Source: an uncultured Methylococcaceae bacterium (GTDB lineage: Bacteria; Pseudomonadota; Gammaproteobacteria; Methylococcales; Methylococcaceae). Taken from it: 44,953 nucleotides of DNA. The stretch covers positions 1 through 44,953 of the forward strand of contig CAIZPP010000174.1 in NCBI GenBank assembly GCA_903934875.1, written 5' to 3'. Shown one piece after another: positions 1 to 21,092 of the stretch. Positions within the stretch are counted from its first letter, which is position 1. Every line of letters starts with the position of its first letter. Under the pieces are notes generated by a model that did no database searches, was not told the DNA's origin, and saw nothing but the letters and a program-made list of their open reading frames with translations. The translations under genes and the position numbers were made by a program.

Positions 1-41
1 ATGTGCCATTTTCACCGTAGAAGTCCCGACTCGCATTCATG

Positions 42-164
42 TACAGCGTTTTTTCTTGACAAAAAAAAATAATAAAGGACATTCAGTCAAACCATCCTGT
101 ATATGAACTGCTTTGCAAAATGATATAACCCAACAAGTAACTCTTCGATATTAAAAACGCTGTA
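42..164 (+). repeat. TACAG-family element, type A, copy 1
   Basis: A 123-bp AT-rich unit begins TACAGCGTTTTT and ends AAAAACGCTGTA, perfect inverted ends. It ends two bases outside the purH stop codon. The 41 bases before it (1-41) match the end of the core seen in the composite copies at 4571-5024 and 6571-7023, so this is probably one side of a composite cut off by the window edge. The TA-CAGCG ends suggest insertion at TA, as in IS630/mariner-type MITEs; that mechanism is inferred. Confidence 0.8.
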
Positions 165-166
165 AA

Positions 167-1732
167 CTAGTGCCGAAAATGCCTCATCCCGGTAAACACC
201 ATCGCCAAACCATGTTCGTCGGCGGCGGCGATGACTTCGGCGTCGCGCACCGAACCACCCGGTTGGATGACGGCGGTGACACCGACTGCCGCTGCCGAGT
301 CCACGCCATCGCGGAACGGGAAAAAGGCATCGGAGGCCACTACTGAACCCTTGACTTCCAGCCCTTCATCGTCTGCCTTAATGGCGGCGATACGGGCGGA
401 ATAGACGCGGCTCATCTGCCCGGCGCCAATTCCAATTGTTTGGCTGTTCTTGGCATAGACAATGGCATTGGATTTGACGAATTTGCAGGTCTTCCAGGCA
501 AATAACAAGTCGATGATTTCCTGCTCCGTCGGTGCCCGTTGCGTCACAATGCGCAGGTCGTTGCGGGTTATCAGTCCGTCATCCCGATCCTGTACCAGCA
601 AGCCACCGACCACCCGTTTGAAATCCCAAGCCGGGGTAGACAAAGCCTGCCACTGGCCACAATCCAACACCCGCACATTCTGCTTGGTGGCTAGAATCTG
701 CGAGGCTTCGGCTGCGATGCCGGGGGCAATGATGACCTCGACGAACTGACGGTCAATAATGGCCTTCGCAGTAGCGGCATCCAAGGCTTGATTGAAAGCG
801 ATGATGCCACCGAACGCCGAGGTCGGGTCAGTGGCGTAAGCACGGTCATAGGCTTCCAGCAAACTCGCCGCCTGTGCGATGCCGCATGGATTGGCATGTT
901 TGACGATGACGCAAGTGGGCAGACTGTCGAAACTTTTCACGCATTCCAAGGCCGCGTCGGCATCGGCGATATTGTTGTAAGACAACTCTTTACCTTGAAG
1001 CTGGCGGGCTGAACTGATGGAACCCTGCGCAGCGTTCGCCTCAATATAAAATGCAGCTTGCTGGTGCGGGTTTTCCCCATAACGCATACGTTGACTGCGA
1101 GAAAAGCGTAACAACAGTTGTTCGGGGAACGCATCCGCACCCTCCACCCGCCTGCCCAAATAGTCAGCAACGGCGGCGTCGTACTTGGAGGTATGGGCGA
1201 AGCTCTTGGCAGCAAGCCTAAAGCGGGTGGCTTCCGCTAATGATCCGTCCCCGCCTTGCAATTCGGCAATCACAACCTCGTAATCCGCCGCATCAACAAT
1301 GACGCCGACCGATGCGTGATTTTTTGCTGCCGCCCGTATTAAGGCAGGTCCGCCAATGTCGATATTTTCGATGGCGGTCTCCAAGTCGCAATCCGGCTTG
1401 GCCACGGTGCTCTCAAAGGGGTAAAGGTTCACCACCACCAGATCAATGGGTTTGATGCCGTGGCTTTCCATAACGGCCTCGTCTATCCCTCTACGCCCGA
1501 GTATTCCACCGTGAATCTTCGGGTGTAAGGTTTTGACGCGTCCATCCATCATTTCAGGGAATCCAGTGTAATCAGACACTTCAATGGCGGGAATGCCGTT
1601 TTCCAAGAGCAATTTTGCGGTGCCTCCTGAAGATAGAATTTCCACACCCAATGTTGATAAGGAGCGGGCAAAATTAACGATACCAGTTTTGTCGGAGACA
1701 CTAATCAATGCACGGGAAATTTTAATAGTCAT
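167..1732 (-). CDS. purH: Bifunctional AICAR formyltransferase / IMP cyclohydrolase
   Basis: PurH catalyses the last two steps of de novo IMP synthesis in the cytoplasm: formyl transfer from 10-formyl-tetrahydrofolate to AICAR, then ring closure. The 521-residue length is normal for the family. The N-terminal MGS-like cyclohydrolase domain opens with [12 protein letters not shown] and contains [14 protein letters not shown]. The C-terminal AICAR transformylase domain contains VKHANPCG, which holds the Lys-His pair of the active site, and ends in GMRHFRH. The ATG start at 1732 fits the usual N-terminus. The gene stands alone, without purD beside it, and is bounded on both sides by TACAG-family elements, one ending two bases after its stop codon. 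Its base composition is like the housekeeping genes and unlike the AT-rich block further right. The identification is secure. Confidence 0.97.
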
Positions 1733-1761
1733 GGTAAAACTCAGGATAAGGGTTATTCAAC

Positions 1762-1883
1762 TACAGAATTGTTATTTTTTAAATATACCAGATTGGTATA
1801 TTCAGCTCACGTATCAAGTTAACTGAATATCTTGCCCTTTCATTCCAGCTATCAAGTAACTCTTTGATGTTGATAATGCTGTA
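1762..1883 (+). repeat. TACAG-family element, type B
   Basis: A 122-bp unit upstream of purH. Its left end, TACAGAATTGTTATTTTTTA, is degenerate and its right end is GATGTTGATAATGCTGTA. The interior (AAGTTAACTGAATATC, then CTTTCATTCCAGCTATCAAG) matches the type B copies at 4903-5024 and 6901-7023. A type A copy missing its left end follows directly. Any purH promoter must lie in the 29 bases left of it or inside it. Confidence 0.7.
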
Positions 1884-1988
1884 ACAAAGGAAAATAATAG
1901 CGGATGCTCAATCAAACCATCTTGTGTGTATGTGCTTTGCAAAATAATATAACTCAACAAGTAACTATTTGATAGTAATAACGCTGTA
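1884..1988 (+). repeat. TACAG-family element, type A, left end missing
   Basis: This runs from ACAAAGGAAAATAATAG to GATAGTAATAACGCTGTA and shares CAATCAAACCAT and ATATAACTCAACAAGTAAC with the other type A copies. The left inverted end is missing, as if this copy had fused to the type B unit before it. It ends 13 bases from the fis stop codon, so the purH-fis intergenic region is mostly repeat. Confidence 0.7.
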
Positions 1989-2001
1989 AAACGCTTTATG
2001 C

Positions 2002-2292
2002 TTAGAGCGGGCCATAGTTGGCTAGTTTTTTACGCAAAGTGCTGCGACTCAATCCTAACATTTGTGCAGACTTGCTTTGGTTATGACCGCACAGTTCCAG
2101 TACCGTCTGAATTAGGGGGCGTTCAACTTCATTGAGTACCATATCATAAAGATTACCGATCTCTTCCCCATCAAGCCGGGTTACATAGTCCTTAACCGCA
2201 AGGCGAACATGTTCGCTGAGCAATAATGGAACCTGCGGCGGAGCAGAATACTCCATTCCAACCATACTGTTAACGACATCATCGACATTCAT
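2002..2292 (-). CDS. fis: DNA-binding protein Fis
   Basis: Fis is a small nucleoid-associated protein that bends DNA and acts at growth-regulated promoters, recombination sites and oriC. At 96 residues it is close to the 98 of E. coli Fis. The C-terminal helix-turn-helix (roughly residues 70-94) reads NQSKSAQMLGLSRSTLRKKL, the conserved Fis signature, and the protein ends in ANYGPL. Its ATG overlaps the dusB stop codon in an ATGA arrangement, so the two genes should be translated from one message, as in the enterobacterial dusB-fis operon. The operon promoter would lie in or beyond the TACAG element in front of dusB. Confidence 0.93.
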   Translation of the reverse strand: MNVDDVVNSMVGMEYSAPPQVPLLLSEHVRLAVKDYVTRLDGEEIGNLYDMVLNEVERPLIQTVLELCGHNQSKSAQMLGLSRSTLRKKLANYGPL

Positions 2293-3272
2293 GCTGGTGT
2301 TTCTCGAAGATTGAATTCAAATAAGCTTGTTACTAGGCTAATTTGCCTGTCTGCATTTTCCACAGATAAAATGGCTTTTAGTTTTTGCGAAGCTATACCA
2401 CCCAAATTTTTCACATACCAAGCAATGTGCTTGCGGGCTATCCGCACACCGGCGTACTCCCCATAAAACGCATATAAGGCGGAGAGATGTTCGATCATTA
2501 CATTTTGCAAATGCTCAGTTTCTGGTGGAAGACATTCCGTTCCAAATTCAAGATGGTGTTGGATTTGCGCAAACAACCAAGGTCTGCCAAGTGCTGCACG
2601 TCCAATCATCAGCGCATCGGCACCCGTTGTGGCAAGCACAAACTTAGCTTTAGCAGCCGAGTCAATGTCTCCGTTGGCAATGATAGGAATATTTACCGCC
2701 GATTTGGCCTCAGCTATTGTATTGTATTCGGCCGCGCCGGAAAAGCCGCAAGCGCGGGTGCGCCCATGCAAGGCCAAGGCTTGAATACCGCTACTTTCAG
2801 CAATTTTCGCTATTTGCACCGCATTTCGGCTGCTCAGGTCCCATCCAGTACGAAATTTTAAGGTGACAGGCACATCCACGGCCTTAACCACAGCATCCAA
2901 AATGCTTGCCACTAATTTTTCATCTTTCAACAGTGCGGAACCCGCAGCGACATTGCACACTTTTTTGGCGGGGCAGCCCATGTTGATGTCAATAATTTGC
3001 GCACCTCGGTCAACATTGCGCTTTGCAGAATCAGCCAACTGTTGCGGACATGACCCGAGAATCTGGACGGTTCTTGGTTCAGGCTCGCCTGTATGATCAC
3101 AGCGCAATAAGGATTTCCGCGTATTACATAATTCAGGATTCGAACTGACCATTTCCGATACTGCTAGCGCTGCTCCGTAGCGGCGACATAATATGCGGAA
3201 AGGTCTGTCAGTGACACCGGCCATGGGAGCCAAAATTAAGTTTCCATTTAATTGATATGAACCAATGTGCAT
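2289..3272 (-). CDS. dusB: tRNA-dihydrouridine synthase B
   Basis: DusB is an FMN-dependent enzyme that reduces specific uridines in the tRNA D-loop. The protein has the family start (IGSYQLNGNLILAPMAGVTDRPFR), the catalytic-cysteine region NMGCPAKKVC near residue 100, the FMN-barrel motifs LHGRTR and IIANGDI, and GADALMIGRAALGRPWLF. Its 327 residues fit the family. It is the upstream gene of the dusB-fis pair and overlaps fis by four bases. Its ATG is directly joined to a TACAG-family element, so the ribosome binding site must lie in the repeat: this copy reads GAGGT 13 bases before the ATG, where other copies read GATGTTG. Confidence 0.95.
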   Translation of the reverse strand: MHIGSYQLNGNLILAPMAGVTDRPFRILCRRYGAALAVSEMVSSNPELCNTRKSLLRCDHTGEPEPRTVQILGSCPQQLADSAKRNVDRGAQIIDINMGCPAKKVCNVAAGSALLKDEKLVASILDAVVKAVDVPVTLKFRTGWDLSSRNAVQIAKIAESSGIQALALHGRTRACGFSGAAEYNTIAEAKSAVNIPIIANGDIDSAAKAKFVLATTGADALMIGRAALGRPWLFAQIQHHLEFGTECLPPETEHLQNVMIEHLSALYAFYGEYAGVRIARKHIAWYVKNLGGIASQKLKAILSVENADRQISLVTSLFEFNLRETPA

Positions 3273-3395
3273 TACAGCGTTTTCTACCTCAAAGAGTTAC
3301 TTGATAGTGGGTATGATAGCGTGGGTTATTCGGTTAACCTGAAGGGTTAACTGAATATCGTTTTTTTGGTATATTTTGAAGATGAAAACTCTGTA
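3273..3395 (-). repeat. TACAG-family element, type B, filling an intergenic region
   Basis: This 123-bp copy begins TACAGCGTTTTCTACCTC right after the dusB start codon and ends GAAAACTCTGTA two bases before the stop codon of the next gene. The entire 125-base gap between the genes is thus the element plus two bases. Internal GGTTAACC and GGTTAACTGAATATC mark it as type B on the minus strand. Confidence 0.8.
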
Positions 3396-3397
3396 AA

Positions 3398-4570
3398 TTA
3401 TCTTGTAAACATATTAAAATCTTCAAGAAACCAAGGGTTCCTTGCAATAAAATCTTTTCTATTTATAAAGTAGTTATAAAAACGATCAACAACGGAAGTG
3501 GGGGTTAATAATACACCAAAGTCATCGTTAGAGTGAATAGATTTTAGTTTTTTTCCATTAAAAATAACGTCAAGCATAACATCGCCCATTTCATAGTTAA
3601 AATGTCCAATATCTTGCCAATACTTTACCTCATTGTTGCGGATCCGTTCTGTTAGGATATCAGAGGTTCCTTGAAAATCCCATAACTCTACTAATGAATG
3701 CATGGTATTAACCTGTTCGACAAGCTTTGCAATATCATATAGAGATCGCCATCTCCCTAGGATATCACCGCATCCCATCAATAACTCCATCCACATTGCA
3801 TGGTTTGGATAGACAACTAGTTTTACATTTACATTGTGGTTAACTAGTAAAATTAATAAATGCTTCAAGCCTTCAACATCCTGGTGATCAATTGGATACG
3901 ACCAAGCGGGAATTTCTGTTGCGACAGGGGATTTACAGGGTTCCTTTGCTGCAAAATTTAGCTGCCTTCTTAAGTAGAACTTGAAAACCTGCTCAATTTG
4001 AGCATTATTATTTCTGTGAAAGTATGACATACCATTAAGAGTATGTGTAGGTGGTCTATCTTGATGACGTAAGGTATTAATTGAAGCCCTCAAAGCATCA
4101 AACGAAAATAGTAATGTCTTCTGTTCTATTGTTCCGATGGGTTCCATTTTAGTGCTGCAATCGGGTAATGGTAGTTGCAATGGATTGATACCTATCACCA
4201 CAGTTCTTAGGGTGGTATGCTTAATCGCAAAATCCACATTGCAATAAACTTTAACCCAATCAGCTCCAGCAATGCCAAAATTATAACTGCGAAATTTTCC
4301 CTTATCGGTCAACCCGGGATGTTCAGGGTTTAAACCTATTTCAAAATACGAATTACTGAATATAACCACCTCTGGGCGTGTTTCCCTTAATATTACCGGC
4401 TTAATTTGTCCTTCATAGCCATGATACTCAGTTTTTACCGCGTTAAATCCGTTAATCGATATATCTCTATAATACCAAAATGGATCGATAATCCTGTTAA
4501 TTATAACGGTGACAAATAACAGTAAAAGTAAAGATGAAATACAATATATAGTAAAATTCTTTGTATTCAT
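3398..4570 (-). CDS. SGNH/AlgX-like membrane-anchored protein 1, divergent
   Basis: A 390-residue protein with one N-terminal membrane segment (about residues 9-27, SSLLLLLFVTVIINRII) and the rest predicted outside the cytoplasm. The motif VVIFSNSYFEIGL (Ser74) sits where SGNH/GDSL hydrolases carry the nucleophile serine, and WQDIGHFNYEMG (Asp320, His323) resembles the C-terminal Asp-x-x-His block. The usual GDS is SNS here, so the protein is divergent. Partners of MBOAT acyltransferases such as AlgJ and AlgX pass acetyl groups to polysaccharides; the neighbouring MBOAT gene at 5027-6571 makes that role the best guess. No Shine-Dalgarno sequence is seen: the ATG is directly joined to a TACAG-family end. 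Activity is unproven. Confidence 0.6.
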   Translation of the reverse strand: MNTKNFTIYCISSLLLLLFVTVIINRIIDPFWYYRDISINGFNAVKTEYHGYEGQIKPVILRETRPEVVIFSNSYFEIGLNPEHPGLTDKGKFRSYNFGIAGADWVKVYCNVDFAIKHTTLRTVVIGINPLQLPLPDCSTKMEPIGTIEQKTLLFSFDALRASINTLRHQDRPPTHTLNGMSYFHRNNNAQIEQVFKFYLRRQLNFAAKEPCKSPVATEIPAWSYPIDHQDVEGLKHLLILLVNHNVNVKLVVYPNHAMWMELLMGCGDILGRWRSLYDIAKLVEQVNTMHSLVELWDFQGTSDILTERIRNNEVKYWQDIGHFNYEMGDVMLDVIFNGKKLKSIHSNDDFGVLLTPTSVVDRFYNYFINRKDFIARNPWFLEDFNMFTR

Positions 4571-5024
4571 TGCAGCGTTTTAAGATCCAATAATTGCTTG
4601 TTAAGTTATATTATTTTGCAAAGCAATTCTAACAATTGGTGGTTTGTATTCGCGTCCTTTATTATTTTTCCGTGTAAAGAAAAAACGCTGTACATAAATG
4701 CAAATCGGGAGTCCTAGCAAAAAAAAAAAGTGGCACATAAGCCGTTTGACGGTCAACAAAAGACGTTGTCAAAACGACGGAATACGCCTGTTGCGCCTTA
4801 CTGCTTTGGGGGAAGCCTATTAGTGATTTATTATACGCACTAAAATTATAGGTTGGCATACATTTTTGAAAAAGGTATGTGAAGCATGGGTATATCTTTA
4901 TGTACAGCATTTTCATCTTTAAAATACACCTAGTAAAGGATATTCAGCAAAGTTTCAAGTTAACCAAATAACTTTGCCTTTCATTCCAGCTATCAAGTAA
5001 CTCTTTGATGTTGAAAATGCTGTA
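4571..5024. repeat. Composite TACAG element, copy 1 (A-core-B)
   Basis: This consists of a type A unit on the minus strand (4571-4693), a core (4694-4902) and a type B unit on the plus strand (4903-5024). The outer ends form inverted repeats of about 30 bp built on TGCAGCGTTTTA and GAAAATGCTGTA, with GTAACTCTTTGAT near the right end. The core holds GTGGCACATAAGCC, GTTGCGCCTTACTG and GGTATGTGAAGCATGG, all found again in the copy at 6571-7023. The unit fills the gap between two genes: it starts at the ATG of the SGNH gene and stops two bases from the MBOAT stop codon. No convincing gene lies in the core. Confidence 0.75.
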
Positions 5025-5026
5025 GC

Positions 5027-6571
5027 TTAGAACTGAAAATAGATGAATTCACTCATTTCAGATAAAGATAGGATTGACCAAAAGCCCATGACAATGGAAA
5101 TAGTAAGCCAATATAGATTTGGTTTCCATGTCCAATTATAATTGAATGTACGGCGATCTAGTAGAAAAAGTTCACTTGTGTTAGGCAAAACCCAACAAAT
5201 AAACAGCAAAATAGCTATCAATCTTAGCTCCGGACCAGCGCTAGATAAGGTATTATCAATCGTAGACTTGAGACCATGGGATAAAAGCCAATGAATGAAT
5301 GGATTATTTTCTGAATTTTCTATCCAAGTTATTGGTAATAAAGTGCCATTCATTCCAAGCATTCCCTTGATAATAATAATCGCAGAATTTAGGGAATTAG
5401 ATCTGAAAAACACCCATGCAAACACAACTGCAATAAAGGTAATAATACGGCATGCTATTTTATATAACAGCGAGTGGTTTTCTGAACGATAACCAAGCCA
5501 ATGATAAATTCTTCGCCAAGCATGGTTTATGATTAAATAAATCCCATGTAGACCTCCCCAAATTAAAAATGTTATGTTTGCGCCATGCCAAAGCCCACCA
5601 AGCAACATGGTGAGCATAAGATTAATATACCGGCGAGTTTTTCCGCTACGATTCCCGCCTAGTGGAATATATATATAATCGCGAAGGAATCTAGAAAGGG
5701 ACATATGCCAGCGACGCCAAAAATCAATTATGCTATTTGCCTTATATGGAGAATTAAAATTTATTGGTAAATTTACGCCAAACATCCTTGAAGCACCGAT
5801 AGCCATATCCGTATAACCAGAAAAATCAAAATACAATTGCAAAGTATACGATAAAGCGCCACCCCATGCTTCCAGTGATGTGACATACACACCTTTCTCA
5901 GCCGCTTCAAATACTGGTGTCGCATAAATAGAAGCGTTGTCTGCCAATAATACCTTTTTAAACAAGCCTACTATAAATAGAGTCATCCCAATTGATATAT
6001 TATCGTAGTGTAATTTATAAGTATCAACGCTTGAAAATTGAGGCATCATCTCCTTATGATGCAAAATTGGGCCGGCAATTAGATGAGGAAAGTAGGTAAC
6101 AAAAAGGCAGTAATTTATAAAATTATATTCGCTGGCTAAACCCCGTGATGCATCCACTAAAAAGGCAATTTGCGTAAATGTGAAAAAGGAGATTCCTATC
6201 GGTAAAATAATTTCTTGCAAACAATATTCCGTTCCAAATACACCATTAAAATTTGCAATGAAAAAGTTAGTATATTTATAGTAGGATAATAGCGATATAT
6301 TCACTAAAACTCCTATGAATAATAAAATATTCGTATGTTTTGAGTATATTAAACTAGATAATCTGGCAAGAATTGACCCAATGGTGAAATTAAAAACAAT
6401 TGACAGTACCAATAAAGCAACAAAACTTGGGTTCCACCAGCCATAAAATACAAATGATGCCGCAGTTAGCCAAATTGATGCAATAAAGTTGTTTTTTTTT
6501 CCTAATGCAAAAAACACTATTAATGTTATTGGCAAATAGGCGAAAATGAATCCATATGAATTAAATAACAT
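5027..6571 (-). CDS. MBOAT O-acyltransferase 1 (AlgI/DltB-like)
   Basis: A 514-residue multi-pass inner-membrane protein of the MBOAT family. It would move an acyl group, probably acetyl, from a cytoplasmic donor across the membrane for transfer to a surface polysaccharide. Visible motifs are FPHLIAGPILHHKEMMPQF (about 161-179), LQLYFDFSGYTDMAIG, FWRRWHMSLSRFLRDYIYIP, and GGLWHGANITFLIWGGLHG with the presumed catalytic His329 and a second His342. The start MLFNSY matches both paralogues in the window. The ATG shares its A with the end of a TACAG element, and there is no Shine-Dalgarno sequence. The likely partner is the SGNH protein at 3398-4570 or 7025-8122. Family assignment is firm; the acetylated polymer is unknown. 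Confidence 0.9.
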   Translation of the reverse strand: MLFNSYGFIFAYLPITLIVFFALGKKNNFIASIWLTAASFVFYGWWNPSFVALLVLSIVFNFTIGSILARLSSLIYSKHTNILLFIGVLVNISLLSYYKYTNFFIANFNGVFGTEYCLQEIILPIGISFFTFTQIAFLVDASRGLASEYNFINYCLFVTYFPHLIAGPILHHKEMMPQFSSVDTYKLHYDNISIGMTLFIVGLFKKVLLADNASIYATPVFEAAEKGVYVTSLEAWGGALSYTLQLYFDFSGYTDMAIGASRMFGVNLPINFNSPYKANSIIDFWRRWHMSLSRFLRDYIYIPLGGNRSGKTRRYINLMLTMLLGGLWHGANITFLIWGGLHGIYLIINHAWRRIYHWLGYRSENHSLLYKIACRIITFIAVVFAWVFFRSNSLNSAIIIIKGMLGMNGTLLPITWIENSENNPFIHWLLSHGLKSTIDNTLSSAGPELRLIAILLFICWVLPNTSELFLLDRRTFNYNWTWKPNLYWLTISIVMGFWSILSLSEMSEFIYFQF

Positions 6572-7023
6572 ACAGCGTTTTTAATATCGAAGAGTTACCT
6601 GTTGGGTTATTTCATTTTGCAAAACACAGACACACAGTATGGTTTGATTGAGTGTCCTTTATTATTTTTCTTTGTTAAGAAAAAACGCTGTACATAAATG
6701 CAAATTCTTCTTCTAGCAATGTAGTGGCACATAGACCGTTGTTTGTCCAGCAGCAAAATGACCTTACCAGAACTATGGCTTACGGCTGTTGCGCCTTACC
6801 TCGTTGAGGGAAGCCCATAGGCGCATTATTATACGCGTTTAAATTATTGGCTAGCATACATTTCTGGAAACGGTATGTGAAGCATGGAGAATTCTTTATG
6901 TACAGCATTTTCGTCTTTAAATTATACCTAATAAAGGATATTCAGCTAACGTTTCAAGTTCATTGAATATCTTGCCCTTTCATTCCAGCTATCAAGTAAC
7001 TCTTTGATGTTGAAAATGCTGCA
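6571..7023. repeat. Composite TACAG element, copy 2 (A-core-B)
   Basis: The organisation matches 4571-5024: type A on the minus strand (6571-6692), core (6693-6900), type B on the plus strand (6901-7023). The first base of TACAGCGTTTTT is also the last base, on this strand, of the MBOAT start codon (CAT), so the ATG is built on the element boundary. The other end is one base from the stop codon of the SGNH gene at 7025. The core holds a hairpin, TGCGCCTTACCTC with GAGGGAAG and AGGCGCA, which is decayed in copy 1. Confidence 0.75.
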
Positions 7024-7024
7024 A

Positions 7025-8122
7025 TTAGTCCCCAGAAAACTCCAGAAGAAATTGAAGTAATGTTTTAGCCGCTATTTGTTGACCTTTGCCTGCCCAATGT
7101 GTGTCATTCGGCAAATACAAATCTACAACACCCTCTTTTGTAACGGCAGATTGCAATGGTAAATCAAACCTAGGCAAATGCAAGGATTTGTCTGATGACA
7201 ATCGGCTTATAGGACTATATTTCGCAGAGGATGCATCTTTCAAAAGAGGTGAGTAAGTTGTTAATTTGTCAGGTGCGACCATCACTACAAAAAGAGTCTT
7301 GCCATTCTTTTGGACAAGGTTCTGAAAATTAATTAGCCTACATCTTATGTCCTCAACAAAATGATCATTCCAATTTTTCTTTTTTACATCCCCTTCATAC
7401 ACTAACAATATGCCAGATTTTTTGCTAGAAAATAGCTTATCCATTTTCAAATCGAATAAGAATGCCCGAGTGTCTCCATAATTCAAATGGAAGAGTGTAT
7501 CCAAATAATCTACTGCATATGCATATCGTTTATTTAAGGGTGGACGATTATTATCTCTAAATACATCAATGATAGGCATCATATTAGATATTGGCCTGAG
7601 TTCAGGAGATTCGTATTCATGAATCTTATTTGTTACCTTACATTCTCCACTAATTTTTGGCAATATATTTAACTGACGTTCAACTACTTCCAAAACAAAA
7701 ACTTTAGGTGGTGTTTTTTGGAATGTATCGCTATTTACTATTTGTGGTATTATAGTTGGATCATAGCTTGGTGGATTAGTTTTTGTTGTATAATGACTTA
7801 CAGTAGATACAGACCATCCAGTTTCAGCAGTTAAAAAGCTCTGCCACGGGTAGTTCATCATACCAAGAACTCCACCGAAGGAGAAGGAGTCTCCTACCAC
7901 TAGGATATCAGCGTAATGATCATAAACTTCTTGTAGAGGGGCTGGCAGTTGTGCAAAAGCCTTTTGCGGTACATTCCATCCGTAGTCATTTTCAGAATAC
8001 CCGCTTACCCGGGTTGTGTCACCTGTTGGAGGCTCTAGATAAAAACAGGCTAATAATAATATAATATAATTGGCAACAACAAGAGTCACCAATCCCCATG
8101 TATAAAACTTGAAATTATCCAT
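7025..8122 (-). CDS. AlgX/AlgJ-like SGNH acetyltransferase 2
   Basis: A 365-residue protein with an N-terminal membrane anchor (about residues 9-28) and a predicted periplasmic SGNH domain. The catalytic set is visible: Ser79 in ILVVGDSFSFGG, and Asp340 and His342 in LPNDTHWAGKG. AlgJ, AlgX and related proteins use this triad to move acetyl groups to polysaccharides such as alginate. The gene follows the MBOAT gene 8125-9606 with a two-base gap, the only junction in this block not filled by a repeat, so the pair is almost surely co-transcribed. GYSENDYGWN early in the protein recurs as GYAERDFGWT in the paralogue at 9860-10936. The substrate polymer cannot be read from the sequence. Confidence 0.8.
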   Translation of the reverse strand: MDNFKFYTWGLVTLVVANYIILLLACFYLEPPTGDTTRVSGYSENDYGWNVPQKAFAQLPAPLQEVYDHYADILVVGDSFSFGGVLGMMNYPWQSFLTAETGWSVSTVSHYTTKTNPPSYDPTIIPQIVNSDTFQKTPPKVFVLEVVERQLNILPKISGECKVTNKIHEYESPELRPISNMMPIIDVFRDNNRPPLNKRYAYAVDYLDTLFHLNYGDTRAFLFDLKMDKLFSSKKSGILLVYEGDVKKKNWNDHFVEDIRCRLINFQNLVQKNGKTLFVVMVAPDKLTTYSPLLKDASSAKYSPISRLSSDKSLHLPRFDLPLQSAVTKEGVVDLYLPNDTHWAGKGQQIAAKTLLQFLLEFSGD

Positions 8123-8124
8123 CG

Positions 8125-9606
8125 TTAAAATTGAAAATATAGAAACTCACTACTATCGTCGCCCTTCAATATAGATTGGGATGCCAAAATAAAAATTAAA
8201 ATCATCCAAATCAAACTGGGTCTCCATTCAAACCATTTCACAGTAGAAGAGAAATCTTTCTCGTAAATTATGAAAGCTGGCTCATATTTGGCCATTATCT
8301 GCTGAGTATTCGGCAACAGCCATGCAATTAGCAAAAGTTTCCCTATCATGGACAGTTGAAAACGTCCAGTGAAACCGAATCCATTTATGCCTAGCATGGA
8401 TTCAGTAATTGAAAATCCAGTTTGTATGTTGTCTGCCCGGAAAATAACCCAAGCGAAGACTACGGCTATGAATGTGATGAAACAACTAGACAACCTGCCA
8501 ACAAAAGAGGATTTATTAAGATCATGACCTAATTTATTTCGTATACCATGCCATAAGTGGTTGATGATTAGATATAAACCATGCAGACCTCCCCAAACCA
8601 CAAAATTCCATCCCGCACCATGCCATAAACCTCCAAGGACCATGGTCGTCATTAGATTTACATGCTTTCTGAGAACCCCTTTTCTATTTCCTCCAAGAGG
8701 TATGTAAAGATAATCTCGCAAGAAACGCGATAATGTCATATGCCATCGCCGCCAAAAATCAATTATATTGACGGCTTTATAAGGGGAATTAAAATTAAGA
8801 GGAAGTATGATACCAAACATCCTAGATATTCCTATTGCCATGTCTGAATATCCAGAAAAATCAAAATAAAGCTGAAGGGTATACGAGAGTGCAGCGCCCC
8901 AGCTTTCTTTGAATGATAACGTATTTCCATTTGCAGCTGATTCAAATACAGGTTTAACATATTTAATCATTTCATCAGCTAACATCACTTTTTTGAATAA
9001 GCCAATTATAAATATTGTTAATCCAATTGCAAAACACTGGTAGTTGAAGCTATAAATATCCTTCTTTTGGAACTGTGGCATCATTTCTTTATGATGCAAT
9101 ACCGGGCCAGCTATTAAGTGTGGAAAATAGGTGACAAAAACTATATAGTGGATAAGATTAAATTCTCTGGCTAATCCACGAGATACATCAACCAAAAAAG
9201 CTATCTGTGTGAATGTAAAAAATGAAATTCCTAAGGGAAGTATTATAGTATTAATTTGATAATTGATGCCTAAACTTGTTGTTAAGGATGTGGCGAAAAA
9301 ATTAAAATATTTGAAATAGCCTAATAAAATAATATTAGAGACAACCCCAAAAAACAAGGTTAACTTACGTAACTTAATATTGTTCAGGGTAAAAAAGTTG
9401 GCGATACATATGCCAATAATATAATTAAATATAATGGATGCCATGAGAAGTGAAACATAGATTGGGTTCCACCATGCATAAAAAAACAAGGAGGCTGCGC
9501 CCAACCATGCGGCAGCGATATGTTGATTATACCTTCCTAGCTTGAAAAAAACATAAAGGACTACTGGTAAAAAAATGAAAATAAACTCGAAAGAATTAAA
9601 CAGCAT
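8125..9606 (-). CDS. MBOAT O-acyltransferase 2 (AlgI/DltB-like)
   Basis: A 493-residue multi-pass membrane protein, co-linear with the MBOAT protein at 5027-6571 over its first 330 residues with hardly a gap. Key motifs are FPHLIAGPVLHHKEMMPQF, LQLYFDFSGYSDMAIG, FWRRWHMTLSRFLRDYLYIP and GGLWHGAGWNFVVWGGLHG (presumed catalytic His329). It would supply acyl groups to the periplasmic SGNH partner encoded two bases downstream, forming one complete module. The ATG (MLFNSF) lies four bases inside a TACAG-family end and has no Shine-Dalgarno sequence. The last residues, EFLYFQF, recur as EFIYFQF and EFLYYQF in the two paralogues, which supports duplication of a common ancestor. Confidence 0.9.
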   Translation of the reverse strand: MLFNSFEFIFIFLPVVLYVFFKLGRYNQHIAAAWLGAASLFFYAWWNPIYVSLLMASIIFNYIIGICIANFFTLNNIKLRKLTLFFGVVSNIILLGYFKYFNFFATSLTTSLGINYQINTIILPLGISFFTFTQIAFLVDVSRGLAREFNLIHYIVFVTYFPHLIAGPVLHHKEMMPQFQKKDIYSFNYQCFAIGLTIFIIGLFKKVMLADEMIKYVKPVFESAANGNTLSFKESWGAALSYTLQLYFDFSGYSDMAIGISRMFGIILPLNFNSPYKAVNIIDFWRRWHMTLSRFLRDYLYIPLGGNRKGVLRKHVNLMTTMVLGGLWHGAGWNFVVWGGLHGLYLIINHLWHGIRNKLGHDLNKSSFVGRLSSCFITFIAVVFAWVIFRADNIQTGFSITESMLGINGFGFTGRFQLSMIGKLLLIAWLLPNTQQIMAKYEPAFIIYEKDFSSTVKWFEWRPSLIWMILIFILASQSILKGDDSSEFLYFQF

Positions 9607-9610
9607 AAGC

Positions 9611-9720
9611 TACAGCGTTTATAATATAAAATGATTAGACCCTATAAGAAACCGCGCTTTGGTTAAGCAGTGGTGCGGAAGCTGGTTACGTTTATGATAA
9701 TGTCTATTACTTAGTTACGT
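9611..9720 (-). repeat. TACAG-family end with unrelated interior
   Basis: The sequence TACAGCGTTTATAATATAAA starts four bases before the ATG of the MBOAT gene 8125-9606, but the interior does not match types A or B and no right end is seen. It directly adjoins the next element at 9721. It may be a decayed copy, or the start of a disrupted composite. Confidence 0.45.
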
Positions 9721-9858
9721 TACAGCGTTTTCAACATCAGAGAGTTACTTGATAGCTGAAATGAAAGGGCAAGATATTCCGTTAACCTGATCTGCGTTTA
9801 CATATTCATTATCAAGTAACTCTTTGATGTTGAGAAGATGTAAGATAAAAATGCTGTA
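9721..9858 (-). repeat. TACAG-family element, type B, with duplicated end
   Basis: This 138-bp copy runs from TACAGCGTTTTCAACATC to AAAAATGCTGTA and contains GAAATGAAAGGGCAAGATAT (type B on the minus strand). The block ATCAAGTAACTCTTTGATG appears near the right side and its complement near the left, so the end sequence is partly duplicated. It ends one base before the stop codon of the SGNH gene 9860-10936. Confidence 0.7.
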
Positions 9859-9859
9859 T

Positions 9860-10936
9860 TTATTTGTCACCAGCAATAACACCGATTTCAACTAATAATT
9901 CATACACTGACTGTGCAGCGATTTGATAACCTAAAGTGCCGAAATGGGTGTCATTTGGTAAGTATACATCTTTTTCCATGCTATCTATGGCTTTCTGTAA
10001 AAGAGCATCAACGTGAGTAGTATTGATTTTTTTTTGCAACAACATATTGTTTATTTCTGCTATATTAGTAAACTCGGGATTAATTATATACTTGCTATAA
10101 GCTGTACCTTTGTCCGGTATAGGTAGGAGAATAAATACTGTCTTACCGTTAGATTGAATTTCGTTTTGAATTTCCAAGGCATAGCATGTCGCAATATTGA
10201 TTTCATTAATAGTCCATTTCTTGCTTTCAAACCAAGAATTTAATACAAGAATTTCATTGCTTTTAGTGTTTGAAAATAGATTATCTTTTAGTAAACTATA
10301 TTTTTTGACTTTTGTAAAATCGTTATCAAATACAAATCTTAGTATACTGTTTTCAATGTAAACGAGCGCGAATTTTAAATTTATTTCAGACCAATCAGTT
10401 GTAGTATCTCTTCTTATTTCAACCAAAGGAATGCTCTGTTTACTCCCGTTGGTAAATTTTAACCCTTCAATTTTAATAGGAGAGGAAGGCACACATGTGG
10501 CTGTTGATGAAGAAAAATGCTTTGGTAAAGTTCTTACCCCCATCTCAGCGATAAAAATTTTTGGTGGGTTATTTATGAATACTTTGCTTTTAATAATGTT
10601 TTCTATAGATGTGTCATCCCAGTGAAGGGTGGTGAAAGAGAGGCCAGTTTTCTCATTTAAGAAACTTTGCCAAAATCCAGATTTTGAGAACGAATCACCT
10701 AGAACTACAATATCATAATACTTATCGTATGAATTTGAAACCTTAGCTTCGTTACTCAAAACTTTACGTGAAGAAGTCCATCCAAAATCTCTCTCTGCAT
10801 ACCCACCCATTCTTGTTAAATCACCACTCAACGGCTGAATATATTCAGATGTCAAAGCTAATGCAGCAAGAGAAAATATCACAAATAATATGAGTGAAAA
10901 TAAATATCTTATAGATTCAATCTTGTCTTTAGACAT
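9860..10936 (-). CDS. AlgX/AlgJ-like SGNH acetyltransferase 3
   Basis: A 358-residue membrane-anchored protein with one N-terminal hydrophobic helix (about residues 10-30) and a predicted periplasmic SGNH domain. The triad is present: Ser82 in IVVLGDSFSKSG, and Asp329 and His331 in LPNDTHFGTLGYQIAAQ. It is a paralogue of the protein at 7025-8122, sharing the opening GDLTRMGGYAERDFGWT and the C-terminal block, but is strongly diverged in between. Its natural partner is the MBOAT gene 11106-12686, from which it is separated by a truncated composite repeat. The ATG is two bases from a TACAG-family end and no Shine-Dalgarno sequence is visible. Acetyl transfer to a surface polysaccharide is inferred from family and context. 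Confidence 0.75.
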   Translation of the reverse strand: MSKDKIESIRYLFSLILFVIFSLAALALTSEYIQPLSGDLTRMGGYAERDFGWTSSRKVLSNEAKVSNSYDKYYDIVVLGDSFSKSGFWQSFLNEKTGLSFTTLHWDDTSIENIIKSKVFINNPPKIFIAEMGVRTLPKHFSSSTATCVPSSPIKIEGLKFTNGSKQSIPLVEIRRDTTTDWSEINLKFALVYIENSILRFVFDNDFTKVKKYSLLKDNLFSNTKSNEILVLNSWFESKKWTINEINIATCYALEIQNEIQSNGKTVFILLPIPDKGTAYSKYIINPEFTNIAEINNMLLQKKINTTHVDALLQKAIDSMEKDVYLPNDTHFGTLGYQIAAQSVYELLVEIGVIAGDK

Positions 10937-10938
10937 AT

Positions 10939-11104
10939 TGCAGCGTTTTTAATATCGAAGAGTTACTTGTTGGGTTATATCGTTTTGTTAATCACAGACA
11001 CACAGCATGGTTTGATTGAGTGTCATTTATTATTTTTCTTTGTTAAGAAAAAACGCTGTACATAAATGCAAATCGAGACTCCTATTGACGTTGAAAATGC
11101 TGTA
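10939..11104. repeat. Composite TACAG element, internally deleted
   Basis: A full type A unit on the minus strand (10939-11060) is followed by only 24 bases of core (CATAAATGCAAATCGAGACT...) and then 20 bases of a right end, TTGACGTTGAAAATGCTGTA. Compared with the composites at 4571 and 6571, most of the core and of the type B unit has been lost. It fills the junction between the SGNH gene at 9860 and the MBOAT gene at 11106, ending one base from the MBOAT stop codon. Confidence 0.7.
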
Positions 11105-11105
11105 T

Positions 11106-12686
11106 TTAAAATTGATAATATAAAAACTCGCTGACTTTAGTAATATTGGCTAATCCAATCACAGCAATAATAGCTATACCGACAGACCAATTAAAATTTG
11201 GTTTCCAAAGTAACATTGAAGGTTGGAACTTGTCGCCACGGTAAGGATTTAAAGCTGGATAGTATTTTGCCATAATCTGCTGCGTGTTAGGCATGCACCA
11301 TATTATTAAGCCTAAATAAAGCACTGACTTGAAGGCATCCGATGTAAAACCAGTACCCTCAATGCGTGCGTTTATCGCTTGGAACCTTATACCCAACGAG
11401 CTTAGTAAAGGTTCAAGTGATCCAAATTGGCTTTTCCACTCTAACGGTAGAGCTACCCCATTTATAGCCAGCATTCCGCTAAGCATATGCATCGCTCCGT
11501 TCATGCTATGTGTCCGAAACAAAGCTAGTGATAGTACGAATGCGGCGAATGTCAAAGCACAACCGAAAAAACTCCCAATCGGTGTCGATATCCTAATATC
11601 CTGTCCGAATCCTCGTCGGAGATTTCTCCACAGATGATTCATTGTTAGGTAAAAACCATGCATTCCACCCCATATCAAATAATTCCATCCTGCGCCGTGC
11701 CAGAGTCCGCCAACTAGCATGGTAATCACCAGATTCAACATTAGACGCCAAGGTTTTTGCCTGCCGTGGCTAAGCGGTGTATAAACATATTCGCGAAGGA
11801 ATCTAGACAAGGTCATATGCCAGCGCCGCCAGAATTCAAAAATATTTACCGCTTTGTAGGGCGAATGAAAGTTTAAGGGCAATTTTATCCCGAACATTAA
11901 TGATCCACCAATCGCCATGTCGGAGTAGCCAGAAAAGTCAAAATATAACTGAAATGCATAGCATATTCCCCCAAGCCATGCTTCAAAAAACGTCAAGGCT
12001 TGGCCCTTGTCCGCAAGTGCGTACAAAGTGACCGCATGTGGGGCAATGCCATCCGCAAGAGCTGTTTTCTTGATCAATCCGATAAAAAATACGGTTAAAC
12101 CAACCGCAATATTGTTAAAATTGATTTTATAAGTTTCAGGACTACAGAATTGCGGAATAATTTCTTTATGGTGCAGGATTGGTCCTGCTATTAAGTGGGG
12201 AAAGTAAGTTATGAATAAAATATAGTGAATGAAATTATAACCTTTCACCTCACCACGGAACGCATCCACAAGAAATGCTATTTGAGTAAAGGTAAAAAAA
12301 GAAATTCCCAGTGGCAACAGAATCTCACCTAAATTAAAAGATGAACCCGTCAATGCATTTATGTTTTCCATAAAGAAGTTGGCATATTTATAATATCCTA
12401 ATAAAGACAAGTCAAATCCTAGGCCAAATATTAAGATAGCTTTGCATTTTTTGCTCTTACCACTCCGCTGCTGCTCTTTTATAAGCCCTACGCCAACGGT
12501 ATAGTTGAAAAATATTGATGTCAATAATAATACTAGATAGCGTGGATTCCACCACCCATAAAAGAATAACGACGCAATTACCAGCCAAGCAGCGGCAATG
12601 TTTTGGCTAAATCGGCCTGCCAAATAAAATAATAAAATTGTTATTGGCAGAAAAAGGAATATAAAAGGATATGAATTAAACAGCAT
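11106..12686 (-). CDS. MBOAT O-acyltransferase 3 (AlgI/DltB-like)
   Basis: A 526-residue multi-pass membrane protein and the first gene of the acyltransferase block in the direction of transcription. Motifs: FPHLIAGPILHHKEIIPQF, LQLYFDFSGYSDMAIGGS with a Phe-Gln variant before it, FWRRWHMTLSRFLREYVYTP and GGLWHGAGWNYLIWGGMHG (presumed catalytic His330). The GGNR loop of its two paralogues is SHGR here, and the C-terminal third is longer, so it is the most divergent of the three. It begins MLFNSY like the others; the ATG lies four bases from a TACAG-family end and has no Shine-Dalgarno sequence. The likely partner is the SGNH protein at 9860-10936. Confidence 0.9.
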   Translation of the reverse strand: MLFNSYPFIFLFLPITILLFYLAGRFSQNIAAAWLVIASLFFYGWWNPRYLVLLLTSIFFNYTVGVGLIKEQQRSGKSKKCKAILIFGLGFDLSLLGYYKYANFFMENINALTGSSFNLGEILLPLGISFFTFTQIAFLVDAFRGEVKGYNFIHYILFITYFPHLIAGPILHHKEIIPQFCSPETYKINFNNIAVGLTVFFIGLIKKTALADGIAPHAVTLYALADKGQALTFFEAWLGGICYAFQLYFDFSGYSDMAIGGSLMFGIKLPLNFHSPYKAVNIFEFWRRWHMTLSRFLREYVYTPLSHGRQKPWRLMLNLVITMLVGGLWHGAGWNYLIWGGMHGFYLTMNHLWRNLRRGFGQDIRISTPIGSFFGCALTFAAFVLSLALFRTHSMNGAMHMLSGMLAINGVALPLEWKSQFGSLEPLLSSLGIRFQAINARIEGTGFTSDAFKSVLYLGLIIWCMPNTQQIMAKYYPALNPYRGDKFQPSMLLWKPNFNWSVGIAIIAVIGLANITKVSEFLYYQF

Positions 12687-12690
12687 AAGC

Positions 12691-12840
12691 TACAGCGTTT
12701 TTATCCTAACAAGGGAAAATAACAAGGGATACTCAATCAAACCAGCAATTGTGTGAATTGCATTGCAAAATAACCAAACAAGTAATCATTTGATATTAAA
12801 AACGCTGTGACAGATAATCTCAGATATTAAAAACGCTGTA
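12691..12840 (+). repeat. TACAG-family element, type A, plus an extra right end
   Basis: A type A unit starts TACAGCGTTTTTATCC and ends AAAAACGCTGTG at 12809; a second right end, CAGATATTAAAAACGCTGTA, follows at 12821-12840. CAATCAAACCAG and GCAAAATAACC confirm type A. This is the rightmost copy of the repeat-filled block. Confidence 0.7.
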
Positions 12841-12970
12841 ACATTGAGAAATTTGGTTGTAGCAATTGCGGATGACATTGTATTCACAACATCAATCGTA
12901 GTTAGCTGGCGTCAATTCGGACCGCTAATTTAGGGCTGCTCTACCTTCGTGAGCAAGCCTTTGTTTTGAA

Positions 12971-13046
12971 TGGCGTCCCCAGGGGGATTTGAACCCCCGT
13001 CGCCGCCGTGAGAGGGCGGTGTCCTAGGCCTCTAGACGATGGGGAC
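12971..13046 (-). tRNA. tRNA-Glu (anticodon CUC)
   Basis: A complete 76-base tRNA including an encoded CCA end. The acceptor arms GTCCCCA and TGGGGAC pair. The anticodon arm CCGCC-CTCTCAC-GGCGG gives anticodon CUC (Glu, GAG), and the T-arm is GGGGG-TTCAAAT-CCCCC. Apart from the anticodon base it closely follows the E. coli tRNA-Glu plan. Its 3' end faces the AT-rich acyltransferase island; tRNA 3' ends are common integration sites, but no integrase gene and no repeated copy of the tRNA end were seen. A TATATT at 13055-13060 (read on the minus strand) could be its -10 box. Confidence 0.93.
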
Positions 13047-13101
13047 GCAGTGATAATATAGTACAACAAAATACATGCCCATTCAACTTGATGCTGTAAA
13101 G

Positions 13102-17768: not shown

Positions 17769-19253
17769 ATGTACGAACATCTCGAAACCGCAGCCCATCC
17801 CGAAAATCTCAAACGCATCATCATCGACCCCGTCACCCGGGTTGAAGGCCACGGCAAAGTAACGCTGTTGCTGGATGAGGACAACCATGTCAAGCAAGCC
17901 CGGCTGCACATAGTCGAATTCCGCGGTTTCGAGCGCTTCATCCAGGGGCGGCCCTACTGGGAACTCCCGGTACTGGTGCAGCGTTTGTGTGGCATCTGTC
18001 CGGTGAGCCATCACTTGGCGGCGGCCAAGGCGGTGGACCAATTGGTGGGTGTGGACCAACTCACCCCGGCGGCCGAAAAACTGCGCCGCCTGATGCATTT
18101 TGGCCAGACCTTGCAATCCCATGCGCTGCATTTTTTCCATCTGTCCACGCCAGACCTCCTATTCGGTTTTGATGATGCCGCCAAACACCGCAATATCATC
18201 AATGTGTTGGGCGAATATCCTGAAACCGGCCTGAAGGGCGTCAAGCTGCGCAAATTCGGCCAGGAAGTGATCCGCGCCATTTGCGGCAAGCGTGTGCACG
18301 GGACGGCGGCCGTTCCTGGTGGTATGAACAAGGCCCTGAGTTTGGAAGACCGCGACTACCTGCTCAAAGATATTGACGAAGTGGTCCTATGGTCGCAGGA
18401 AGTTGTCGCCTTGATCAAAAAGATTTACCTCGCCAACGAGGAATACCACCATTACTTTGGTGCTTTCCCGTCCAACTTTCTCAGCATCATCCGCAGCGAT
18501 GGCGCCTTGGACCTTTATCACGGCGGTTTGCGTGCCAGGGACGAAAAGGGGCTGACCATCTTTGACCATGTGGACTACCGCGATTATAGCCAGTATTTGC
18601 GTGAGGAAGTGCGCTCTTGGTCGTACATGAAGTTTCCCTATATTGTCGAGCTTGGCCGCGAAAACGGCTGGTATCGCGTCGGCCCGTTGGCGCGGATCAA
18701 CAATTGCGATTACATTACCACTCCATTGGCGGAAGCCGCACGGGCCGAATTCATGGCCATGGGGGAAGGCGGGCCGGTGCATGAGTCTCTGGCTTACCAT
18801 TGGGCGCGCATGGTGGAGATGCTGTACAGTGCCGAGGGTATCAGGGAGTTGTTGGACGATCCCGATGTGCTCAGTGGCGATTTGGTGGCCACCGGCGAGA
18901 AACGCCGGGCAGGCGTGGGGGTCATCGAGGCGCCGCGTGGAACCCTGTTCCACCATTATGAAATCGACGAGCAGGATATCGTCACGCGCGCTAACTTAAT
19001 CGTTTCCACCACCAATAACAACCAGGCCATGAACGAGGCGGTACGCTCGGTGGCCGCCCGCTACCTGGATGGCAAGGAACTGACCGAGGGCCTGCTTAAT
19101 CATTTGGAAGTTGCCATCCGCGCCTATGACCCCTGCCTGTCCTGCGCCACCCATGCGCTGGGCAAGATGCCGCTGGAATTGGAATTGCTGGATGCGGAAG
19201 GAACGCAGATAGACAAGATGACTAGGGATGGCGATGGGAAAATTGGAAAATAA
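17769..19253 (+). CDS. hoxH: NAD-reducing [NiFe] hydrogenase large subunit HoxH
   Basis: HoxH carries the NiFe active site of the cytoplasmic bidirectional NAD-linked hydrogenase (group 3d). The 494-residue protein has IDPVTRVEGHGKV, the L1 ligand motif RLCGICPVSHH (Cys74, Cys77) and the L2 motif DPCLSCATH (Cys456, Cys459, His462), so all four metal-binding cysteines are present. A 32-residue tail after His462 is the peptide normally removed by a specific protease after nickel insertion, and such a protease gene lies at 20423-20899. The start has a good site, AAAGGGGAATTAA-ATG. The usual upstream partners hoxF, hoxU and hoxY are absent: the effector module, on the other strand, ends 109 bases before it. 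A Rho-independent terminator follows. Either the other subunits are elsewhere or the locus has been rearranged. Confidence 0.93.
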   Translation: MYEHLETAAHPENLKRIIIDPVTRVEGHGKVTLLLDEDNHVKQARLHIVEFRGFERFIQGRPYWELPVLVQRLCGICPVSHHLAAAKAVDQLVGVDQLTPAAEKLRRLMHFGQTLQSHALHFFHLSTPDLLFGFDDAAKHRNIINVLGEYPETGLKGVKLRKFGQEVIRAICGKRVHGTAAVPGGMNKALSLEDRDYLLKDIDEVVLWSQEVVALIKKIYLANEEYHHYFGAFPSNFLSIIRSDGALDLYHGGLRARDEKGLTIFDHVDYRDYSQYLREEVRSWSYMKFPYIVELGRENGWYRVGPLARINNCDYITTPLAEAARAEFMAMGEGGPVHESLAYHWARMVEMLYSAEGIRELLDDPDVLSGDLVATGEKRRAGVGVIEAPRGTLFHHYEIDEQDIVTRANLIVSTTNNNQAMNEAVRSVAARYLDGKELTEGLLNHLEVAIRAYDPCLSCATHALGKMPLELELLDAEGTQIDKMTRDGDGKIGK

Positions 19254-19298
19254 GTTGATTTCCATCCTTCGATAGAACCCTGTCCTGAGATACAAAGC

Positions 19299-19334
19299 GC
19301 GACGGGGTTTGTAGCCCCGTCGCTTACGTTTTTT
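19299..19334 (+). terminator. Rho-independent terminator after hoxH
   Basis: GCGACGGGG and CCCCGTCGC form a perfect 9-bp stem around a seven-base loop, followed by TTACGTTTTTT. It begins 45 bases after the hoxH stop codon, so hoxH and the protease gene are unlikely to share one long transcript. Confidence 0.8.
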
Positions 19335-19896: not shown

Positions 19897-19928
19897 AAGA
19901 GATACGGCAATATGGTTAATATTTGCTC

Positions 19929-20210
19929 GTTCCCAAGCTCCTGCACTCGTCGTTATGCACAAGTGTTGGGGACCCGTCATTCCGGTCAAGGATGCCGGAA
20001 TCCAGCGTCCAAGGATGGCAAACTCAAAGTCGCGACAAGTGTCCCTGTATCAAAAGACAGAAAATACAGGTTGGCAATTATTATGAATCAAGCACTTGTG
20101 CAACCGACTGGCTGCCGTCCATGGCTTGGATTTCGGCATCCCTGCCGAAATGACGGCTTTTCCGGTTTGCCCGGACTTGTGTATAACGATGAGAGCCGGA
20201 GCTTGGGAAC
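19929..20210. mobile_element. 282-bp palindromic element with 36-bp inverted ends
   Basis: The left end starts GTTCCCAAGCTCC and runs to TGCACAAGT (19929-19964); the right end (20175-20210) is its complement at 32 of 36 positions, ending GGAGCTTGGGAAC. The interior has further inverted blocks such as GTCATTCCGG and GCCGAAATGACGG. It has no coding capacity and looks like a MITE. No clean target duplication is seen. It lies between the CRISPR array and a TACAG-family core fragment. Confidence 0.75.
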
Positions 20211-20388
20211 CAGCAAACAACGGCCTATGTGCCACTACAACGCTAGGAGCCCCGATTTGAATTTATGTACAGCATTTTTATCTTAATAAAGGATAATAAT
20301 AAAGGACGCTCAATTTAACCGTCTTGTGTGATGTGCCTTGCAAAATGATATAAGCTAAAAGTAACTCTCTGATATTAAAAATGCTGCA
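20211..20388 (+). repeat. TACAG-family core fragment plus type A element
   Basis: Bases 20211-20267 (AACAACGGCCTATGTGCCAC ... GAATTTATG) match the core of the composites at 4571 and 6571. They lead into a type A unit at 20268-20388, TACAGCATTTTTATC to AAAAATGCTGCA. This shows the family also outside the acyltransferase block, between the hox genes. The unit ends 34 bases before the protease start codon. Confidence 0.7.
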
Positions 20389-20899: not shown

Positions 20900-20962
20900 T
20901 GGTCGTAAGGTGATTCCTGATAAAGAAACGCTCAACGAAAATCTGTTCCGTAGGAAAAAAGA

Positions 20963-21031
20963 GTCCACGAAATACACAAAAAGCACGAACAAAAGCCAGA
21001 TTCGTTCGTGCATTTCGTGTTTTTCGTGGAC
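20963..21031. repeat. 28-bp imperfect inverted repeat
   Basis: GTCCACGAAATACAC... (20963-20990) pairs with ...GTGTTTTTCGTGGAC (21004-21031) at 25 of 28 positions around a 13-base loop, giving a long hairpin between hoxW and the Uma2 gene. The CACGAAA-rich words are of a kind found as dispersed repeats. No T-run follows. Confidence 0.7.
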
Positions 21032-21092
21032 GATTCTCGGAGGATTCATTATTGCAATTTACCTAACAACTGGAACTCTGGAGGAACGATCC

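Follow-up and report, generated by a model that had tools for sequence, protein, structure and literature searches.

The gene gaps in the first 13 kb of contig CAIZPP010000174.1, from an uncultured Methylococcaceae bacterium, are largely occupied by copies of a short repeat of ~122 bp with TACAGC...GCTGTA ends, which lie at or within a few bases of the start and stop codons of the genes that they separate. The window analysed here is the whole 44,953-nucleotide stretch of that contig (positions 1 to 44,953), and the genes concerned are purH, fis, dusB, three SGNH genes and three MBOAT genes. The placement at gene edges is strong, and neither a bias in target sequence nor the length of the gaps explains it. 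The family likely consists of non-autonomous miniature inverted-repeat transposable elements (MITEs) of an insertion sequence (IS) from the IS630 family, with the likely autonomous partner in congeneric genomes, i.e., a known kind of element in an unusual placement. Taken as a whole, we hold with good confidence that IS630 MITEs inserted at TA dinucleotides, that selection acted on the insertions and that native spacer was lost, leaving the element as the gene gap. The least certain step is the cause of the placement, for which a choice by the transposase and selection combined with spacer loss both stand as unproven candidates.

Placement at gene edges in two species

The repeat family recognised in the first-pass annotation of this DNA proved to be real: at up to two mismatches TACAGCGTTTTT has 33 matches in the window against 4.7 expected (none of 100 shuffles reaches 33), and a profile of the unit matches 11 units in positions 1-12,900 and one in the remainder. 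The distances claimed there, from -1 to +4 bases for starts and 1 or 2 bases for stops, were all recovered (Table 1). The starts of dusB, SGNH-1/2/3 and MBOAT-1/2/3 are supported by alignment with congener DNA from residue 1; the gene caller favoured a dusB start 48 bases further inside. The further claim that nearly every junction is filled, with little other intergenic sequence, holds for most of the region, where 1,537 of the 1,727 non-genic bases between the purH stop and the MBOAT-3 start are profile-matched element. It fails at the MBOAT-2/SGNH-2 gap (2 bp) and the dusB/fis junction (a 4-bp overlap), which have no element, and at the fis/purH gap, which keeps ~44 bp of other sequence beside two units. 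Beyond the profile-matched element, an extra ~110 bases (9611-9720) close with another TACAGC-type terminus. In terms of element blocks the region is dense: it has 8, while stretches of up to 12.84 kb in a sample of 273 kb from the same genome average 2.2 and never exceed 6.

Placement was then scored against genes called by a home-made codon model in 38 stretches of the host genome (619,216 bases, the window among them) and in 26 stretches of a second species of the genus, G006 (356,334 bases), most of the latter chosen for holding an outer end of the element. Only ends that have a recognisable terminus and face host DNA were counted; 45 of 113 blocks have one or both ends unset. In the host genome 60 outer ends face a start, 2 of them overlapping it, and 29 of the other 58 lie within 10 bp, compared with 4.5% of random intergenic TA sites. 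A further 58 face a stop, 17 of them overlapping it, with 20 of the remaining 41 within 10 bp (5.1% of random sites). The bias is repeated in G006, more weakly, where 7/22 start-facing and 7/23 stop-facing outer ends (3 overlapping) are this close, as against nulls of 3.8% and 4.9%. Hence, the preference for gene boundaries over random insertion, one of the two possibilities offered by the first-pass annotation, is strong and is found in two species.

The sequence flanking 166 outer ends does show a preference, with A at +1 in 51% vs 32% and A or T at +3 in 78% vs 51%. Target sequence alone was considered as an explanation and rejected, as TA sites weighted for this context are expected within 10 bp of starts and stops in just 7.0% and 6.1% of cases respectively. 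Against this context-weighted null, built from the genome's own gaps, the excess gives p=1e-18 for starts and 5e-14 for stops in the host, and 5e-4 and 3e-4 in G006.

It is possible, though to our mind the lesser chance, that purifying selection accounts for all of this, in the sense that insertion at TA is random and every copy is removed save those in the few bases harmless to both genes. Insertions at gene edges are what such a process would leave, and the Shine-Dalgarno motif is rare at start-adjacent sites (2/32 vs 135/466, p=0.004), as if starts independent of it tolerate elements; additionally, in G006 the element-bearing gaps are longer than others (median 306 vs 152 bp). Longer gaps, however, give more room, and yet the elements hug the edges. 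Among the 46 gaps that have a single element stretch and at least 40 bp of other sequence, half show the element within 10 bp of a boundary as against 14% expected over all such element-bearing gaps; the mean percentile is 0.21 (Kolmogorov-Smirnov p=2e-11). Likewise, in 34 tandem gaps with at least 60 bp left, the element is placed at the start in 9 and at the stop in 11, compared with expectations of 1.8 and 1.7, and 9 of 11 convergent gaps have no more than 2 bp left on one side; in both of these counts a stop inside the element was scored as 0. Further, element-bearing gaps in the host genome are not longer than the others (median 147 vs 140 bp).

Element-free junctions and the neighbouring genes

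Congeneric genomes offer junctions without the element, the kind of empty site that the first-pass annotation had proposed to look for. In G005 the genes MBOAT-2, SGNH-2, MBOAT-1, SGNH-1, dusB, fis and purH follow the order of the window with no element between them, the one match being weak (29.9 bits) and far upstream. In G001, MBOAT-3, SGNH-3, MBOAT-2 and SGNH-2 succeed one another in this order and dusB, fis and purH come next, and G003 has part of the arrangement. Because G005 has the order from MBOAT-2 to purH without elements, the elements of the window appear on comparative grounds to be insertions into an older gene order, not gene-swapping joints.

The first-pass annotation had proposed the latter as its other possibility, with genes between copies exchanged by recombination or moved as composite transposons. 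In its favour, two genes in stretch L006 of the host are bounded by elements (6470-6965 and 9106-9225) and the G005 orthologues of the flanking genes are ~0.5 kb apart, while MBOAT-2 and MBOAT-3 have in common GCTT and the first 14 bases from the ATG, beside an element end. Nevertheless, G001 (MBOAT-3 to SGNH-2) and G005 (MBOAT-2 to purH) keep the gene order without elements, jointly covering all nine genes, so that the proposal is not supported for this region. Similarly, an operon in L036 keeps its order at four element-bearing junctions for which the congener gaps (65-86, -4 to -10, 20 and 20 bp) are too short to hold a unit, in G001 and G003 at all four and in G004 at three. Overall, swapping is an unlikely account of the family, and events on element-bounded segments like that in L006 may nonetheless occur. 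Some other gene-order breaks in L006 coincide with elements, and the break at 2381-2456 does not.

Integron-type attC sites between cassettes would likewise give one copy at each gene junction, near the start and stop codons, and are of similar length to the unit. This alternative is extremely improbable: copies are dispersed over many contigs in both orientations, beside core genes and with IS630-type ends, and the gene order is older than the elements.

The same comparisons bear on the native spacer. With the window gaps counted by eye and one TA included, what is left beside the element is 5 bp at MBOAT-3/SGNH-3 (18 in G001), ~7 at SGNH-3/MBOAT-2 (71 in G001, with projections of 65 and 53; the window value is 113 if 9611-9720 is not element), 2 at SGNH-2/MBOAT-1 (83 in G005), 4 at MBOAT-1/SGNH-1 (5 in the congener), 4 at SGNH-1/dusB (38) and, at fis/purH, the ~44 already mentioned (66-70). 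One L036 native gap, also by eye, is 8 as against 20 bp in the congener. Element-free junctions give 2/2, -4/-4 (three times), -14/-14 and 99/92 against G005 and 12/12 against G001, the 99-bp gap corresponding to 196 in G001 and 32 in G004. These values suggest, without proving it, that native spacer has been shortened at several element sites while most element-free junctions are unchanged.

Some elements encroach on coding sequence. The upstream gene runs into the element in 14 of 30 cases examined in the host genome and 2 of 6 in G006, and in one of those 14 the stop of the joined site coincides exactly with the target TA. Some copies supply codons: element sequence provides the end of the upstream gene at L036:13429, and the outer end at L036:14655-14776 can hold the opening of the following gene's frame. 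As for initiation, a Shine-Dalgarno motif is found at 2/32 start-adjacent sites when these are joined as if empty and at 1/32 with the element in place, compared with 135/466 called genes overall. Insertion between a Shine-Dalgarno motif and its start, with the hairpin looped out, was rejected as a general arrangement, in that a motif of at least 4 bases at suitable spacing occurs in only 2/32 joined sites.

Units, composites and the likely IS630-family partner

An alignment of 90 full-length copies resolves two related main forms of the unit, A, beginning TACAGCGTTTTT..., and B, beginning TACAGCATTTTCATCT.... Where copies are less than 700 bp apart, their inner ends face each other in 23 of 33 neighbour pairs. 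Inner-facing pairs with gaps of 190-220 bp carry one common spacer sequence in 7 of 8 cases, and in the eighth, in L038, the gap is mostly other DNA. Because facing pairs mostly have this common spacer, the larger form of the family is a composite of ~455 bp, made up of a unit, a spacer of ~212 bp and a second unit. Its outer ends have a terminus of ~31 bp in common; single units occur too, and 10939-11104 is a shortened composite. The two fills of ~455 bp are thus composites and not lone units of the ~122 bp given in the first-pass annotation. Its reading as a MITE flanked by TA is supported. As a putative target duplication, TA borders 44 of 68 blocks on both sides and 23 on a single side.

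Table 1. Members of the repeat family in the window, with distances to the adjacent codons
Positions	Strand	Feature
1-164	+	Unit of A type (42-164) after a partial spacer module; outer end 2 bp from purH stop
1762-1988	+	Two head-to-tail units with a common TA, in the fis/purH gap
3273-3395	-	Single B-type unit; outer end at dusB ATG (0), other end 2 bp from SGNH-1 stop
4571-5024		454-bp composite, from SGNH-1 ATG (0) to MBOAT-1 stop (2)
6571-7023		453-bp composite, from MBOAT-1 ATG (-1) to SGNH-2 stop (1)
9611-9720		Element-like sequence; TACAGCGTTTAT terminus 4 bp from MBOAT-2 ATG; no match to the unit profile
9721-9858	-	138-bp unit, 1 bp from SGNH-3 stop
10939-11104	-	Unit with remnants of spacer and second unit; SGNH-3 ATG (+2) to MBOAT-3 stop (1)
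12691-12840	+	Unit 12691-12809 (inner end 4 bp from MBOAT-3 ATG) and outer-end fragment to 12840
20209-20388	+	Unit 20268-20388 with spacer remnant, beyond the 13-kb stretch

Units joined end to end, sharing or nearly sharing the terminal TA, occur at 1763-1988 of the window, L007:12279-12473, L023:16719-16946 and L040:14990-15283, and look as if element ends were themselves targets. A third variant has the inner end ATCAGT after a conserved flank finishing GCGTAAC or ACGTAAC (L005:201, L012:15307, L018:9011, L027:91, L033:117, L036:13562; flank reversed at L038:9495).

The host genome comprises 5.41 Mb in 344 contigs. The 31-bp outer end has 521 matches in it at up to two mismatches (none for the reversed control) and 645 at up to three. 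The stretches sampled were a first 20 taken by contig number (four on contigs with a match elsewhere) and a second 20 chosen for a match; density was taken from the first 20 only, L003, L009 and L017 (all N) being dropped. The 17 usable stretches of that sample (273 kb, 41 units) extrapolate to ~810 units in the genome. Among 21 genomes tested, the outer end was detected in 5 of 7 from the genus and not in any of the 14 related ones beyond it, and the sole named record with an exact 40-mer match is Candidatus Methylumidiphilus alinenensis AMbin10, a freshwater methanotroph. No account of such a family appeared in the titles and abstract openings of the literature searched, including that on MITEs in Methylococcales and methanotrophs.

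The IS630-type transposase with matching ends anticipated by the first-pass annotation is found in congeners and not in the host itself. In G006 a 317-aa open reading frame (L064:1063-2016, contig C181) scores 176.7 bits against NF033545, for which the cut-off is 100, and 103 bits against PF13358. Its stop falls inside the terminal repeat, so that the right end is seen, and the left end of this copy seems lost. Contig C113 of the same genome supplies a left end, with a 124-bp unit followed by promoter-like sequence, the transposase start and then the contig end. This unit is 76-79% identical to the three B-type window units tested, including 79% for that at 3273-3395, and 66-68% identical to two A-type ones. 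G006 has 13 matches, several cut by contig ends, and G001 has a related IS copy with a matching right end. The single DDE_3 match of the host genome, a transposase fragment in L022, was rejected as the partner as it has no matching ends. The composite is best read as a putative deletion derivative of the IS, and the single unit would be one reduced yet further. Just upstream of the transposase gene in G006, a reading frame at L064:358-1029 comes to an end; by motif it looks Fic-like.

Folding of single units gives hairpins in which 11-12 pairs of the ends close the stem (four units, six folds, z from -2.25 to -5.3). Together with the outer ends that face starts, this could point to cis-regulatory RNA elements retained by selection to serve many genes as leaders or processing sites. 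We find that doubtful at best: the 454-bp composite does not fold clearly better than shuffles (z -1.0), the numbers of outer ends facing stops and starts are nearly equal (58 vs 60 analysed) and the compared congener junctions do without the element. A known RNA family was likewise rejected, since a search of 1-13,100 against Rfam with E up to 1 gave three matches, all over a tRNA gene (12974-13046, minus strand), which is directly past the last element of the 13-kb stretch.

Other dispersed repeats occur alongside the family: window 20906-21066 is found in more than 20 places in G005 among the matches listed, and 19919-20219 in several places in G001 and G005. Two more, at L036:17110-17191 and 19196-19330, have many copies in G001, G003 and G005, the former recurring every ~314 bp in contig C91 of G005.

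Proposed origin of the placement and comparable families

We propose that the transposase would insert copies at TA within a preferred context of approximately W-N-T-TA-A-N-W. Selection would remove most intragenic insertions, and in packed operons the survivors would sit in the few bases between a stop and the next start. The native spacer remaining beside the element could then be lost, leaving the element as the entire gene gap, with its A-rich end acting as the leader of the next gene, or supplying that gene's start codon or the stop of the preceding one.

Several observations weigh against this scheme. The placement counts depend on a home-made gene caller; the start count, unlike the null, admits the first possible start if it falls at -2 to 10, and with called starts alone 24 of 65 start-facing ends are within 10 bp. 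The 17 of 58 stop-facing ends with a called stop inside the element are excluded from the 20/41. Inner ends show a weaker effect (3/16 starts and 5/17 stops, 4 overlapping, in the host; 0/3 and 0/3 in G006). With regard to the partner, the transposase has no match in the host assembly, neither G006 nor G001 showed a complete IS copy with its two ends on the same contig, and the IS spacer resembles the composite spacer modestly (local score 38, shuffled maximum 33). Spacer loss is based on few junctions, and at L036:13429-13677 the reconstructed gap is +1 as against a 4-bp overlap in congeners, i.e., longer. No exact pre-insertion site was found in the congeners, and the TA duplication is therefore read from the element ends. 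Finally, selection alone is not expected to single out the base beside a start codon when the remainder of a long gap is available.

A different account would have the transposase pick the boundaries of translated genes directly, through DNA form, transcription or coupled translation, with insertion or subsequent repair replacing the native spacer and the element serving, in parts of this genome, as a standard gap that supplies translation starts and stops. We consider this rather improbable. Insertion at TA followed by selection and spacer loss remains the preferred reading.

Comparisons with known families follow the descriptions in the passages cited. RUP of Streptococcus pneumoniae, of 107 bp and with proposed mobilisation by IS630-Spn1, is similarly short, TA-ended and of high copy number, with an IS630-family partner bearing similar ends (PMC3049150, PMC2229807). 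However, its density is greatest 50-150 bp from genes, whereas the present family sits at gene edges, and it is over-represented between convergent genes, which here make up 11 of 84 element-bearing gaps as against 44 of 354 others (PMC3049150). The enterobacterial ERIC/IRU/RU-1 elements (127 bp) are alike in length, inverted terminal repeats and TA termini, and ERIC is described as transcribed with its neighbours and present in up to 711 copies per genome (PMC2229807, PMC10969869). In the cited part of the 2007 account, an IS partner is named among such repeats only for RUP and not for ERIC, unlike the present family, which has one (PMC2229807). Correia/NEMIS elements of Neisseria (~107/155 bp) are likewise TA-ended MITEs with size classes set by internal sequence, but the larger form here is two units around a spacer of ~212 bp (PMC2229807). 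The SPRITE elements of S. pneumoniae also tend to lie near adjacent coding sequences; they are described as terminator-like, enriched at 3' ends and with no known IS partner, whereas the present family faces starts as much as stops (PMC3049150).

The family explains the alikeness of so many gene gaps in the 13-kb stretch. IS630-related MITEs are known as such, and it is the position of a several-hundred-copy family on start and stop codons that contrasts with RUP. The likely autonomous partner and the element-free junctions of the congeners open the way to asking if gene boundaries can be chosen by a transposon, and also how translation persists once the leader beside a start codon is replaced.

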